From Longimicrobiales bacterium (lineage in GTDB: Bacteria > Gemmatimonadota > Gemmatimonadetes > Longimicrobiales > Gaopeijiaceae), in the NCBI GenBank assembly GCA_028823235.1, contig JAPKBW010000009.1:62001-126000 (forward strand): DNA of 64,000 nucleotides, written 5' to 3'. This document shows, piece after piece, positions 33,388 through 59,135 of this stretch. How positions within the stretch are numbered: the stretch's first letter is position 1; every line of letters starts with the position of its first letter. The notes under the pieces were generated by a model that did no database searches, was not told where the DNA came from, and saw nothing but the letters and a program-made list of their open reading frames with translations. The position numbers and the translations under genes are program-made.

Positions 33388-33828
33388 ATGCGACCACTCC
33401 ACCTTCCTACGCTATTCGCCCTGTCCCTGCTCGCGATGCCATCTCCGGGCTCGAGTCAGGGCATCGCACAACTCATGACGGGATTCCGGGAGGGCGGTGG
33501 CTGGGTCAGCATTCCCATCGAGGAGGGCCGTGGGACGTTCTCTACGATCACGTTGCCGACCGCGGCCATGAGCGTCGCCGGATGCATCAACGTCTGGTCC
33601 GTCCATTCCGGCACATGGAAGATCGAGGCACACGAGAAGGTGCTCGGGTCGGTCCTGAGCCTCGATGCCGAACCAGGTCAAGGTGTGCCGTTCGAGCATG
33701 ACTTCGGAATGACCGCCCAGGTCGACTTCGACTTCCGGTGGAGTGAGCCCCGGGACACCACGTTGTACTTGTGGGTCGGACTAGGCAGGTCGGGCCGTGG
33801 TCCGGAGACGGTGTGTGAGCCCGGCTAG
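33388..33828 (+). CDS. Secreted hypothetical protein
   Basis: I do not recognise a family. The 146-residue product has a signal peptide (LHLPTLFALSLLAMPSPGSSQ) and a single compact domain predicted to be beta-rich, with GWVSIPIEEGRGTFSTITLP, a lone cysteine in VAGCINVW and another at the C-terminus (ETVCEPG) that could pair. GAGGG lies just before the ATG. It converges on the amidohydrolase fusion gene, with a palindrome over its stop codon. Confidence 0.6.
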   Translation: MRPLHLPTLFALSLLAMPSPGSSQGIAQLMTGFREGGGWVSIPIEEGRGTFSTITLPTAAMSVAGCINVWSVHSGTWKIEAHEKVLGSVLSLDAEPGQGVPFEHDFGMTAQVDFDFRWSEPRDTTLYLWVGLGRSGRGPETVCEPG

Positions 33829-33835
33829 CCGGGCT
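33818..33835. terminator. Palindrome between convergent genes
   Basis: AGCCCGGCTAGCCGGGCT is an 18-base perfect palindrome that contains the stop codon of the secreted protein gene and lies just before the convergent stop at 33837. It could form a hairpin in either transcript; there is no T-run, so it would be at most a weak intrinsic terminator or a stabilising 3' structure. Confidence 0.4.
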
Positions 33836-33836
33836 T

Positions 33837-36392
33837 CTACTGGGAGATCGGCCTGCTCACGCGCCGCAGGACCCGTCCTGCCCTCGTGTGCTGTGGCTCC
33901 CCTTCATCCACCGCCATCTCACCGTTGACTAGGACGTAGCGCATTCCCGTCGCGAGGAGACGGGGCTCTAGGAACGTGGACTCGTCCCGAATCGTCTCAG
34001 GGTCGAACACCGCGATGTCGGCAAAGCTGCCAACTGCAATGCGTCCACGATCGGTGAGGCCGAAGACCTCGGCGGGCTGAGAACTCGAAGCGCGAATCAT
34101 GCGGGACATGGAGAGGACCTCCTCGTCGAGCACATACTTTCGAATCTTCCGAGGATAGGTGCCATACTTCCGCGGATGGCCGTCGGAACCATCCGAGCCC
34201 GTCATGACGAACTCGGCCGCCATAAATGTCGCGATGTCATTCTCGTTCATGTTGAACGACCCAATACCCGCTCCACCGTCTCGAATGATCTCAATCGCTG
34301 TTTCGATCGGATCAAGCCCCCGAGCCGCCGCGACCGCCTCAAGCGTAAGGCCTCGAATGCTCTCGTCGCGCCCTCCCGTAATAAGCATCGCATCCGGTCC
34401 GTTTCGCCTCCGCATGTTGTCCTGCATATCGGAGACGAGTCGCTCACGCACCACCGGGTCGTCGAAACGCGCTAGGAGCGAATCGCGACCTCCTGACTGA
34501 GCCCACCTCGGTAGCAGCGAGGCGTTGAGAGATGATCCACTCGCCTCATACGGATACTGGTCCGCGGTCACACGCAGGCCCCTGGCCCGCGCGGTCCGAA
34601 TCATCTCGATGGCTTCACCGCTCTGGCCCCACACATCCACCCCAAGTGCCTTGATATGGGAGATGTTCGCAGCAATCTCCGCCTCCTCCGCCACGCGGAT
34701 GACCTCGGCGATCGAGCCCAGAAGCCCAATCGAATAAGAGGACTCGTCTCGCATGTGCGAGTCGTAGGTACCGCCGTACGCGGCGGCCACGCGGGCCAAC
34801 TCCACGACCTCTTCCGTCGATGAGAAGCTCTGAGGTGCGTAGAACAAACCCGTTGCGAGTCCTGCAGCTCCGTCCCGCATCGCCTGGTCCACGAGCCCCT
34901 TCATCTTCTCGATTTCATCGTCCGACGCGGGTTCGTCACGCATGCCCATGACCTCGCCGCGCACCGACCCGAAACCAACGAGGAGCGCCGCGTTGGTCCC
35001 TATCCCCCGTCCCTCCATCGCTGCACGGCTTTCCGCGATATCAAATGTTCCGTGCCCGTCGTTTCCGACGACCACGGTCGTCACCCCCTGCATGAGGTAG
35101 TTGAGATTCTCTCGACGCACCGGCTCCTCGGAAGCGAGGTCACGCTGAGCGTGAGCATGGGGGTCGATGAAGCCTGGTGACACGACGAGTCCGCTCGCGT
35201 TGATCACGCGCGTGCCTGCAACACCCGCAGCGGTGGCATCTCCCAAAAAGACGATTCGGTCACCCGAGACTCCGACGTCTCTGATCACGCCTTCTGAGCC
35301 TGACCCGTCGTATACCATCCCTCCACGGATCAGTACCTCTACTTCGTCGGGAACGTCTCCGAGCAGCTCTTTCGGCACCATCGAATGGACGCCGACATTG
35401 CCATCAACCAGCTCCGTGATTCCCAGATCGACTGCCATGGACACCACGGAGTAAGCCTCCCCCTGGCTCAGGCCGGTCCGCTCCTGAATCAACTCGACCG
35501 TCTCGCGGATCGCGATCTCTGTGGCCTCCTCTAGGTCCGGCGCGAAGCCCATCGCGATGTGATGCGTGGGAGTCTCGGCACGAGGCCAGTCCAGTGTTCG
35601 ATCCTTGTGGAGAATGAACTGGAGTCGACCTTCGAGGGAAGTCTCCAGTCCCGTCTGATTCACCTCTCCATCGCCCTGGGCAGCGTGCCCATCGCCGATC
35701 GCGAACAGTGCGCCTGTGACCCACACCGGCACGTAGAGAGTCGTCCCTGCAACGAGCTCCTTGAGGTCCATGTTTCCTGCGTGGCGTCCCGGTGGATTCG
35801 AGCTGACACGCCCCGAATCCGGCGGCGGGGCCACCCCCATGCTTCCGAAGAACGGCCGCGTCGTAACCGTCACACCCGGTGCGATTTCGGCTCGATGGTT
35901 CTGAGTGTCGATTCGAATCAGGCGAGACCGCACATTTTCGTCGCACAGGTCACGCACGAACCCACTGCATCCGTTGTACCCGTATGGAATCGAGTAATCG
36001 ACAGAGAGAATTCGTACCTCAAGCACGTCCCCGGGCTCGGCCCCTTCAATGTGGATCGGGCCGGTCAGGATGTGTCCACCGGGCCCGCGGTCCGTAACCT
36101 GTTCGACAATCGCCGCGAGGTTCTGCTGCACTTCTTCAGCGGGCAGACCCATCTGCTGTAGCCGCGTGGGATTGCTGGTGAGCATCGTGGTGATCTCGAG
36201 GAAATCACCTGACGCTATCCGCAACACCCCCGGCTTTTCCGGGTCGTAGTGACCGTATGCCACGGTCTCGGGTCCTGCCACGAGTCGGTGCGTTGCCTGT
36301 GCCGCGACCCGGCCGTTTCCGATGAGCGGGCCGAGGGCCGATGTAGCAAGGACGAACCATCCGAAACGGGCGACGTATCTGGAGTGCTTCAT
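33837..36392 (-). CDS. Secreted fusion: acetamidase/formamidase domain + D-aminoacylase-like amidohydrolase
   Basis: Two complete-looking enzyme domains are joined in one frame of about 851 residues. The ATG at 36392 gives a signal peptide (FGWFVLATSALGPLIGNGRVAAQ). Residues about 35-340 follow the acetamidase/formamidase (FmdA) fold: GGHILTGPIHIEGAEPGDVL, PFFGSMGVAPP, NPPGRHAGNMDLKEL and GDGHAAQGDGEV. From about 355 an N-acyl-D-amino-acid deacylase-like domain follows: VEVLIRGGMVYDGSG, VSPGFIDPHAHAQRD, YDSHMRDES, ISHIKALG and FVMTGSDGSDGHP. The bridging-Cys position of D-aminoacylase (GNCG) reads GNDG. The gene is downstream of the sdh terminator and is probably its own unit. A paralogue of the second domain alone is at 57.4 kb. 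Confidence 0.88.
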   Translation of the reverse strand: MKHSRYVARFGWFVLATSALGPLIGNGRVAAQATHRLVAGPETVAYGHYDPEKPGVLRIASGDFLEITTMLTSNPTRLQQMGLPAEEVQQNLAAIVEQVTDRGPGGHILTGPIHIEGAEPGDVLEVRILSVDYSIPYGYNGCSGFVRDLCDENVRSRLIRIDTQNHRAEIAPGVTVTTRPFFGSMGVAPPPDSGRVSSNPPGRHAGNMDLKELVAGTTLYVPVWVTGALFAIGDGHAAQGDGEVNQTGLETSLEGRLQFILHKDRTLDWPRAETPTHHIAMGFAPDLEEATEIAIRETVELIQERTGLSQGEAYSVVSMAVDLGITELVDGNVGVHSMVPKELLGDVPDEVEVLIRGGMVYDGSGSEGVIRDVGVSGDRIVFLGDATAAGVAGTRVINASGLVVSPGFIDPHAHAQRDLASEEPVRRENLNYLMQGVTTVVVGNDGHGTFDIAESRAAMEGRGIGTNAALLVGFGSVRGEVMGMRDEPASDDEIEKMKGLVDQAMRDGAAGLATGLFYAPQSFSSTEEVVELARVAAAYGGTYDSHMRDESSYSIGLLGSIAEVIRVAEEAEIAANISHIKALGVDVWGQSGEAIEMIRTARARGLRVTADQYPYEASGSSLNASLLPRWAQSGGRDSLLARFDDPVVRERLVSDMQDNMRRRNGPDAMLITGGRDESIRGLTLEAVAAARGLDPIETAIEIIRDGGAGIGSFNMNENDIATFMAAEFVMTGSDGSDGHPRKYGTYPRKIRKYVLDEEVLSMSRMIRASSSQPAEVFGLTDRGRIAVGSFADIAVFDPETIRDESTFLEPRLLATGMRYVLVNGEMAVDEGEPQHTRAGRVLRRVSRPISQ

Positions 36393-57393: not shown

Positions 57394-59135
57394 CAAACTC
57401 CATGATGGCCATACGATTCGGATGGGCACTCACGGCGGCATTGGCCTTCGCTCCGGCTACCGCCGCCCCACTCCTCGCCCAAGACGCGGGGCCCTTCGAC
57501 CTTCTCGTGCGTGGCGGCCGCGTCCTCGATGGTACAGGAAACCCGTGGTTCCGAGCCGACATCGGAGTTCGTGACGGACGGATCGTGGCAGTCGGGCGAC
57601 TCAATGGTGCGGCAGCAACGAAAACGATCGACGCGGCAGGCCGATACGTGTCACCCGGCTTCATCGACATCCACTCGCATGCAGACGACGGGAGTGCTCA
57701 AATCGGCGGCGCCACGATCCGAACGGATCAACTCGACCGGAAGTCGGCACCCAATCTCGTCTCACAGGGCGTCACGACAGTCGTCGTCAATCACGACGGG
57801 CGCTCCCCGTGGCCGATCCGCGATCAGCGTACGCTCATCGAACAACAGGGTGTGGGTCCAAACGTCATGCTGATGGTCGGGCACGGTACAGTGCGTCGAC
57901 AGGTGCTGGGCGATGATTATCGGCGCCTCGCCACCGATGGCGAGGTCGAGCAGATGAAGGGTCTGGTGCGGCAGGCCCTCGAGGAAGGTGCGGTCGGTAT
58001 GTCCGCGGGCCTCGAGTACGTACCCGGTCGATGGAGCGAGACGAGCGAGGTAGCTCGCATCGCGGAAGAGCTCGTGCCGTATGACGGAGTGTACATCGCG
58101 CACGAACGCTCGGAGGGGGCCGACCCGATGTGGTTCTGGCCGAGCCAAAATGCAGCCGGCCCACCGACCCTCCAAGACGCAATCATGGAAACCATCGAGA
58201 TCGGGCGCCACTCGGGGGCACGGGTGGTCGCGTCACATATCAAAGCGAAAGGTGCGCATTTCTGGGGCTCGAGTGGCAGTGCGATCCAGCTCATTCAGCG
58301 TGCCCGAGACGAAGGAGTGCGCGTATGGGCAGATCAATACCCGTACGCGACGTCCGGCTCTGACGGAAACACCGTCCTCATTCCTTCCTGGGCCACATCT
58401 TCTGAGGACGGCCAGGACGGGCCAGGACCCGCTGCGATGCTGCGCAGGAATCTGACCGATGCCACGATCGAAGCGCAGATCCGTCAGGATATCGCACACG
58501 AGATTCGGCGCCGGGGAGGAGCAGATCGGGTCGTAATTTTCGAATATCCCAGAGACGAGTGGGTCGGCAAGAACCTCCAGGAGGTTGCAGACGCGCAGGG
58601 GGTCGATCCGGTTCAGATGGCGATCGATCTCCAGTTGGTAGGCGATCCAGAGCGACGCGGAGGTGGGCGGTTGCGCGGCTTCTCCATGTCGGAAGATGAC
58701 GTCGAGAGCTACGCAGCTCAGCCGTGGGTGGCGACCGCCTCCGACGGTGGTATCGCGCTACCGGACGACGGCTCCGTTCATCCCCGCTATTACGGGACCT
58801 TCCCACGCAAAATCCGTCAGTACGCCCTGACTGCGGGCGCCCTGTCCGTCGAGGCGGCGATCCGCTCTCAGACGTCCCTGCCCGCTCGCATCATGGGCCT
58901 CCAAGACCGAGGCGAAATCCGAACAGGAAACTGGGCTGACCTCGTGATCTTCGACCTCGAAACGATCACAGACGAGGCGACGTTCTTCGAGCCACACCAG
59001 CACGCTTCAGGAATCGATCACGTCATCGTGAACGGTGAGTTTGTCGTTGAGGACGGGGAAATCCTGTACGCGCTGCCTGGGAAGCTCATCTCCTCTCGTC
59101 GCGGCGGTCCTCCGAGCATCTCTCAAGAGCACTGA
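57390..59135 (+). CDS. Secreted D-aminoacylase-like amidohydrolase
   Basis: This 581-residue protein starts at a GTG overlapping the aminotransferase stop and has a signal peptide (GWALTAALAFAPATAAPLLAQ). It is an N-acyl-D-amino-acid deacylase-type amidohydrolase: DLLVRGGRVLDGTGNPWFRA, VSPGFIDIHSHADD (metal His pair), VYIAHERSEG, VVASHIKAKG and WVATASDGGIALPDDGSVHP. The bridging Cys motif GNCG of classical enzymes reads VNHDGRS here. It is related to the second half of the fusion protein at 33.8-36.4 kb but is a separate copy. Probable role: release of amino acids from N-acyl derivatives outside the cytoplasm. Confidence 0.9.
   Translation: MTNSMMAIRFGWALTAALAFAPATAAPLLAQDAGPFDLLVRGGRVLDGTGNPWFRADIGVRDGRIVAVGRLNGAAATKTIDAAGRYVSPGFIDIHSHADDGSAQIGGATIRTDQLDRKSAPNLVSQGVTTVVVNHDGRSPWPIRDQRTLIEQQGVGPNVMLMVGHGTVRRQVLGDDYRRLATDGEVEQMKGLVRQALEEGAVGMSAGLEYVPGRWSETSEVARIAEELVPYDGVYIAHERSEGADPMWFWPSQNAAGPPTLQDAIMETIEIGRHSGARVVASHIKAKGAHFWGSSGSAIQLIQRARDEGVRVWADQYPYATSGSDGNTVLIPSWATSSEDGQDGPGPAAMLRRNLTDATIEAQIRQDIAHEIRRRGGADRVVIFEYPRDEWVGKNLQEVADAQGVDPVQMAIDLQLVGDPERRGGGRLRGFSMSEDDVESYAAQPWVATASDGGIALPDDGSVHPRYYGTFPRKIRQYALTAGALSVEAAIRSQTSLPARIMGLQDRGEIRTGNWADLVIFDLETITDEATFFEPHQHASGIDHVIVNGEFVVEDGEILYALPGKLISSRRGGPPSISQEH

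Follow-up and report, generated by a model that had tools for sequence, protein, structure and literature searches.

A predicted exported fusion of an FmdA-family domain and a D-aminoacylase-like amidohydrolase, conserved within one bacterial lineage

Why should one predicted exported protein carry two hydrolase domains, and might the two act in turn on one substrate? This question is raised by a gene in a stretch of 64,000 nucleotides (the window) from a Longimicrobiales bacterium (GCA_028823235.1, contig JAPKBW010000009.1, positions 62,001 to 126,000). Judging from its open reading frame, Pfam and phmmer, the gene (33837..36392, minus strand) encodes a predicted exported protein of 851 residues, in which an FmdA_AmdA (acetamidase/formamidase) domain is followed by a D-aminoacylase-like amidohydrolase domain (C-domain). 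Our analysis shows that this fusion of two known families is real, conserved and lineage-limited.

The minus strand can be translated without interruption from an ATG (36392) to the stop codon (33837). A predicted N-terminal signal peptide (residues 1-33, MKHSRYVARFGWFVLATSALGPLIGNGRVAAQA; 36294..36392, minus strand) was recognized by eye from its basic start, hydrophobic core and AQA, and residues 1-29 show a pLDDT below 50 in the AlphaFold model of the fusion (mean pLDDT 85.6, pTM 0.64). The FmdA_AmdA domain comprises residues 34-344 (35361..36293, minus strand) and the C-domain residues 351-845 (33858..35342, minus strand), both as assigned by Pfam, phmmer and fold match. Pfam detected FmdA_AmdA in the N half (E 3e-31) and Amidohydro_3 in the C half (E 3e-25), and phmmer matched the N half to the acetamidases 3b9t, 2f4l, 2ii1, 3tkk and 5ubu and the C half to D-aminoacylase 1m7j/1rjp (E 5e-65). 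The modelled N half superposes on 2f4l, 2ii1 and 3tkk with TM scores of 0.85-0.90, and the C half on 1m7j with 0.88, each normalized by target length. The linker of about six residues (345-350; 35343..35360, minus strand) was delimited by comparing the junctions of three fused proteins, and no second signal peptide is present there in any of the three. The GC content of the two halves is equal (0.616 and 0.618) and therefore gives no sign of a recent foreign origin. The proposal that two hydrolase families are joined in a single protein with an export signal is thus borne out by the reading frame, by matches in Pfam, in the PDB and at fold level, and by sister genomes.

The source is a MAG assembly, and FmdA and the aminoacylase are separate genes in relatives, both of which speak for an assembly or frameshift artefact that joins two neighbouring genes. 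Our family-level search covered 121 genomes. Two members of the same genus, G106 (80% identity) and G103 (76%), contain the same fusion, in each case as a single HSP in a single open frame spanning residues 29/31 to 850/851. The junctions of the three fused proteins read LLGDVPDEVEVLIRGG, LLGEIPSEVDVLIRGG and LLGEGMDVEVLIRGG. This common ORF rules out a frameshift or assembly join near residue 345, the event by which the original prediction would have fallen. As three separately assembled genomes share it, residues 345-350 contain neither a stop nor a change of frame, and FmdA and aminoacylase genes lie side by side in no relative examined, we consider an artefact exceedingly improbable. In a fourth genome, G107, the C-part is found at the same locus, where the gene is ended by the contig end. 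Both halves of the fusion are under purifying selection: NG86 dN/dS among the three fused proteins lies at 0.07-0.09 in the FmdA half and at 0.09-0.23 in the amidohydrolase half, compared to about 0.4-0.9, where computable, for the signal peptide, all of these being rough values with dS near saturation. The set leaves out the comparison of the G107 C-part with G103, which is out of frame.

Another member of the genus, G101, encodes FmdA alone (354 aa) at the same locus, together with the same small convergent gene, sdhB, sdhA and thiC; compared with G101, the extra C-domain of the fusion sits between the end of FmdA and the small convergent gene. The latter (33388..33828, plus strand) encodes an exported-looking protein of 146 aa, and each of the five genus members inspected has a homologue of it at the 3' end of FmdA or the fusion. 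A perfect palindrome, AGCCCGGCTAGCCGGGCT, at about 33817-33834 lies between the two convergent stops and is possibly a two-way terminator. The neighbourhood, i.e. thiC, sdhABC and the small orphan protein, offers neither a clue to function nor a pathway context. The nearest free-standing relatives of the C-domain are found in G061 and G063 (71%), and the one in G061 has a signal-like N-terminus of its own. In the aminoacylase tree, the C-domains of the fusions group with the truncated gene of G107 in a single clade (SH-aLRT 98), to which the free-standing gene of G061 is closest. The fusion may have formed, probably within this genus, by an in-frame join between the 3' end of an exported FmdA-family gene and the part of a D-aminoacylase-like gene that encodes the mature amidohydrolase without a signal peptide. 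FmdA trees do not discriminate between a G101 that never had the C-domain and one that lost it (AU p 0.15 and 0.23).

No other FmdA-aminoacylase fusion appeared among the best matches per genome in samples of two phyla, consisting of 395 Gemmatimonadota genomes and 396 genomes of a second phylum (probably Acidobacteriota), or in an order-level search of 154 genomes with the FmdA domain only, likewise by best matches per genome. Plasmid records contained no place covering 80% of the fusion query, and literature searches returned no description of such a fusion.

A closer inspection of the FmdA half revealed the conserved motifs RHAGNMDLKE (residues 203-212; 35757..35786, minus strand), of which RHAGNMD aligns with 3b9t, 2f4l, 2ii1, 3tkk and 5ubu, and GDGHAAQGDGE (residues 233-243; 35664..35696, minus strand), whose pattern GD.HA..GD.E recurs in the same five structures. 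The half passes the Pfam gathering cut-off of PF03069 FmdA_AmdA (109 bits vs 27), and with 62.2 bits it does not reach the 500 bits set for the formamidase FmdA equivalog NF045496 (NCBIfam). It is a family member by fold, not a formamidase equivalog.

The best NCBIfam match of the C-domain, the amidohydrolase subfamily NF006560 (PRK09061), likewise scores below its curated cut-off (197.8 vs 340 bits). Alignment to AfDam places in the C-domain the HxH metal/catalytic motif (H412 and H414; 35151..35159), the predicted metal ligands His546 (AfDam His220; 34755..34757) and His579, the latter close to the predicted α-carboxylate anchor Lys581 (34650..34658 for both), a second predicted anchor, Tyr613 (34554..34556), and the predicted catalytic Asp734 with a third anchor, Arg741 (34170..34193), all on the minus strand; the acyl-binding Y518 is retained along with K581, Y613 and R741. 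Among the D-aminoacylase active-site and anchor residues checked, only the Cys ligand differs, as Asp445 (35058..35060, minus strand) stands where AfDam has the metal ligand Cys96. Asp occupies this position in 52 of 56 aligned homologues and in nearly all those from Gemmatimonadota; it is found in no solved relative among the matches listed, and the literature searched yielded no description of a D-aminoacylase metal site with Asp in this place. Subtype V amidohydrolases, for which residue roles have been assigned, are defined by a Cys/His/His metal site (PMC12017989), so that by this definition the C-domain is not a member. Because the Asp is common to 52 of the 56 homologues, we regard the domain as an Asp variant of subtype V and not as a broken copy, and for the same reason do not favour a degenerate aminoacylase through Cys loss. 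The C-domain may work like a subtype V enzyme despite the Asp, with Asp445 as a putative ligand in an Asp/His/His site. The expectation that both domains keep most catalytic motifs proved right, with this one exception, and 'D-aminoacylase-type' describes the family and fold of the C-domain but not its metal site, which lacks the defining Cys.

Alcaligenes faecalis D-aminoacylase (1m7j) and Bordetella N-acyl-D-glutamate deacylase (3gip) share with the C-domain the fold (TM 0.88 by target), the HxH motif, a pair of His ligands to the metal, the catalytic Asp, the Tyr that binds the acyl group and the Lys/Tyr/Arg anchors of the carboxylate; the C-domain departs from them in the Asp ligand, in an identity of about 30%, in its fusion to FmdA and in its predicted export. 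The PpOngB GlcNAc1A deacetylase (9kb1-9kb4) shares the D-aminoacylase-like barrel and anchors and illustrates that members of this family can act on substrates other than N-acyl amino acids; unlike the C-domain, it has the Cys ligand, is free-standing and has a known catabolic role. The FmdA half is similar to the PF03069 members 2f4l, 2ii1, 3tkk, 5ubu and 3b9t (a TAT-signal protein) in fold and in the GD.HA..GD.E and GN.D motifs, but unlike these solved members it is fused to an amidohydrolase.

The two families were thought to be normally separate, which is true of FmdA; the aminoacylase family, in contrast, is repeatedly fused to other hydrolases. Several long open frames in these GC-rich genomes were spurious, and only fusions that Pfam confirmed on long frames were counted. 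Relatives of the aminoacylase are joined to Peptidase_S9 (G658, G714 and G698), to γ-glutamyltranspeptidase in two genera (G051 and G071; L142:3995-7405 and L143:295-3663, both minus strand), to penicillin amidase (G144; L148:1889-5599, minus strand, a frame of 1237 aa), to a β-lactamase-type domain (G785) and to a Sortilin-Vps10 propeller (G035 and G036). FmdA was found joined to an α/β-hydrolase in G086 (L132:2553-4535, plus strand). Long frames in G085, G355 and G756 were judged spurious by eye, and for those at L137, L140, L141, L144, L147 and L152 Pfam gave no second domain. Like the fusion studied here, the S9, γ-glutamyltranspeptidase, penicillin amidase, β-lactamase-type and Vps10 fusions have a related aminoacylase domain and, where clear, a single signal-like N-terminus; unlike it, they have other partners and occupy separate branches. 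Mapping the partners on the aminoacylase tree gave seven changes of state, with the β-lactamase row on a long branch and of unsure place. Apparently, the aminoacylase module was joined to varied partners independently. The genome of the window contains some 20 genes for Sortilin-Vps10/BNR propellers, each about 1000 aa long, and with this number the presence of Vps10 propeller genes next to FmdA or to the aminoacylase, as in G061 and G063, is uninformative.

Fusions point to shared function, and one such function would be sequential. Members of the FmdA family convert formamide or acetamide to ammonia and the acid (PMC10781810). In the present protein, the FmdA domain would cleave a carboxamide to ammonia and a free carboxylate; the pocket of the aminoacylase would then anchor this carboxylate through Lys/Tyr/Arg, bind the acyl group through Tyr and remove it, with the metal held by Asp/His/His. 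Candidate substrates are amides of N-acyl amino acids or comparable small N-acyl amides. The opposite order, deacylation before amide hydrolysis, had been proposed; the kept anchors K581, Y613 and R741 suggest the reverse, since an enzyme that anchors an α-carboxylate cannot readily take an amidated one, which would place the FmdA step first and deacylation second. The amides on which FmdA-family enzymes are known to act are small, and the amide of an N-acyl amino acid may therefore be a poor fit. We infer that the protein is exported and active, that Asp445 binds the metal, which substrate is used and in what order the steps occur. As judged from sequence, we assign the exported two-domain enzyme with carboxamide hydrolysis followed by N-deacylation a probability of roughly 0.4; the plainer claim of two active exported domains we hold at about three in four.

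A fusion by itself is no proof of shared substrates, and the sequential reading ranks just above one in which both domains are active without being coupled. In that case, both would act on unrelated amides, and the fusion would save a signal peptide and fix the stoichiometry of two exported nitrogen-scavenging enzymes with interchangeable partners. Such an arrangement, which we consider very nearly as credible, would agree with six different partners of the aminoacylase family, one of them a Vps10 propeller without known hydrolase activity, with at least 12 D-aminoacylase paralogues and another FmdA in the genome of the window (3.1 Mb), and with G101, which manages without the C-domain at the same locus. 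It is countered by the kept carboxylate anchors, which suit the sequential order, and by the partners themselves, most of which target peptide or other amide bonds (a tally with no null for partner types) and thereby lend the sequential reading some support; several of them, peptidases in particular, could also yield N-acyl amino acids whose carboxylate is free. Alternatively, one domain might have lost catalysis and now serve as a scaffold or binding module, e.g. an inactive amidohydrolase without its Cys ligand. The Asp445 at the Cys96 position would fit this, but with Asp in 52/56 homologues, the remaining active-site residues and the FmdA motifs intact, and dN/dS of both domains well below 1, we regard it as quite unlikely.

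If both steps of the sequential reading share one substrate, this would provide a testable function for the exported D-aminoacylase relatives of the Asp type, a large and uncharacterised group, and hint at how these uncultured bacteria may use acylated or D-amino-acid amides as a nitrogen source. Moreover, with one module joined to different amidases time after time, domain partners would become a guide to substrates. More broadly, and as a rather doubtful extension, the Asp-type D-aminoacylases of Gemmatimonadota and the second phylum (probably Acidobacteriota) might represent a mobile processing module, repeatedly and independently joined to exported enzymes that expose free carboxylates (FmdA, S9 peptidase, γ-glutamyltranspeptidase, β-lactamase-type and penicillin-amidase). 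If true, these proteins would be modular exo-amidases that work in two steps, a class with a parallel in the multi-domain carbohydrate-active enzymes. The window contains a second D-aminoacylase-like gene (57483-59090, plus strand), whose product shows 44% identity to the C-domain and has Asp at the Cys position.
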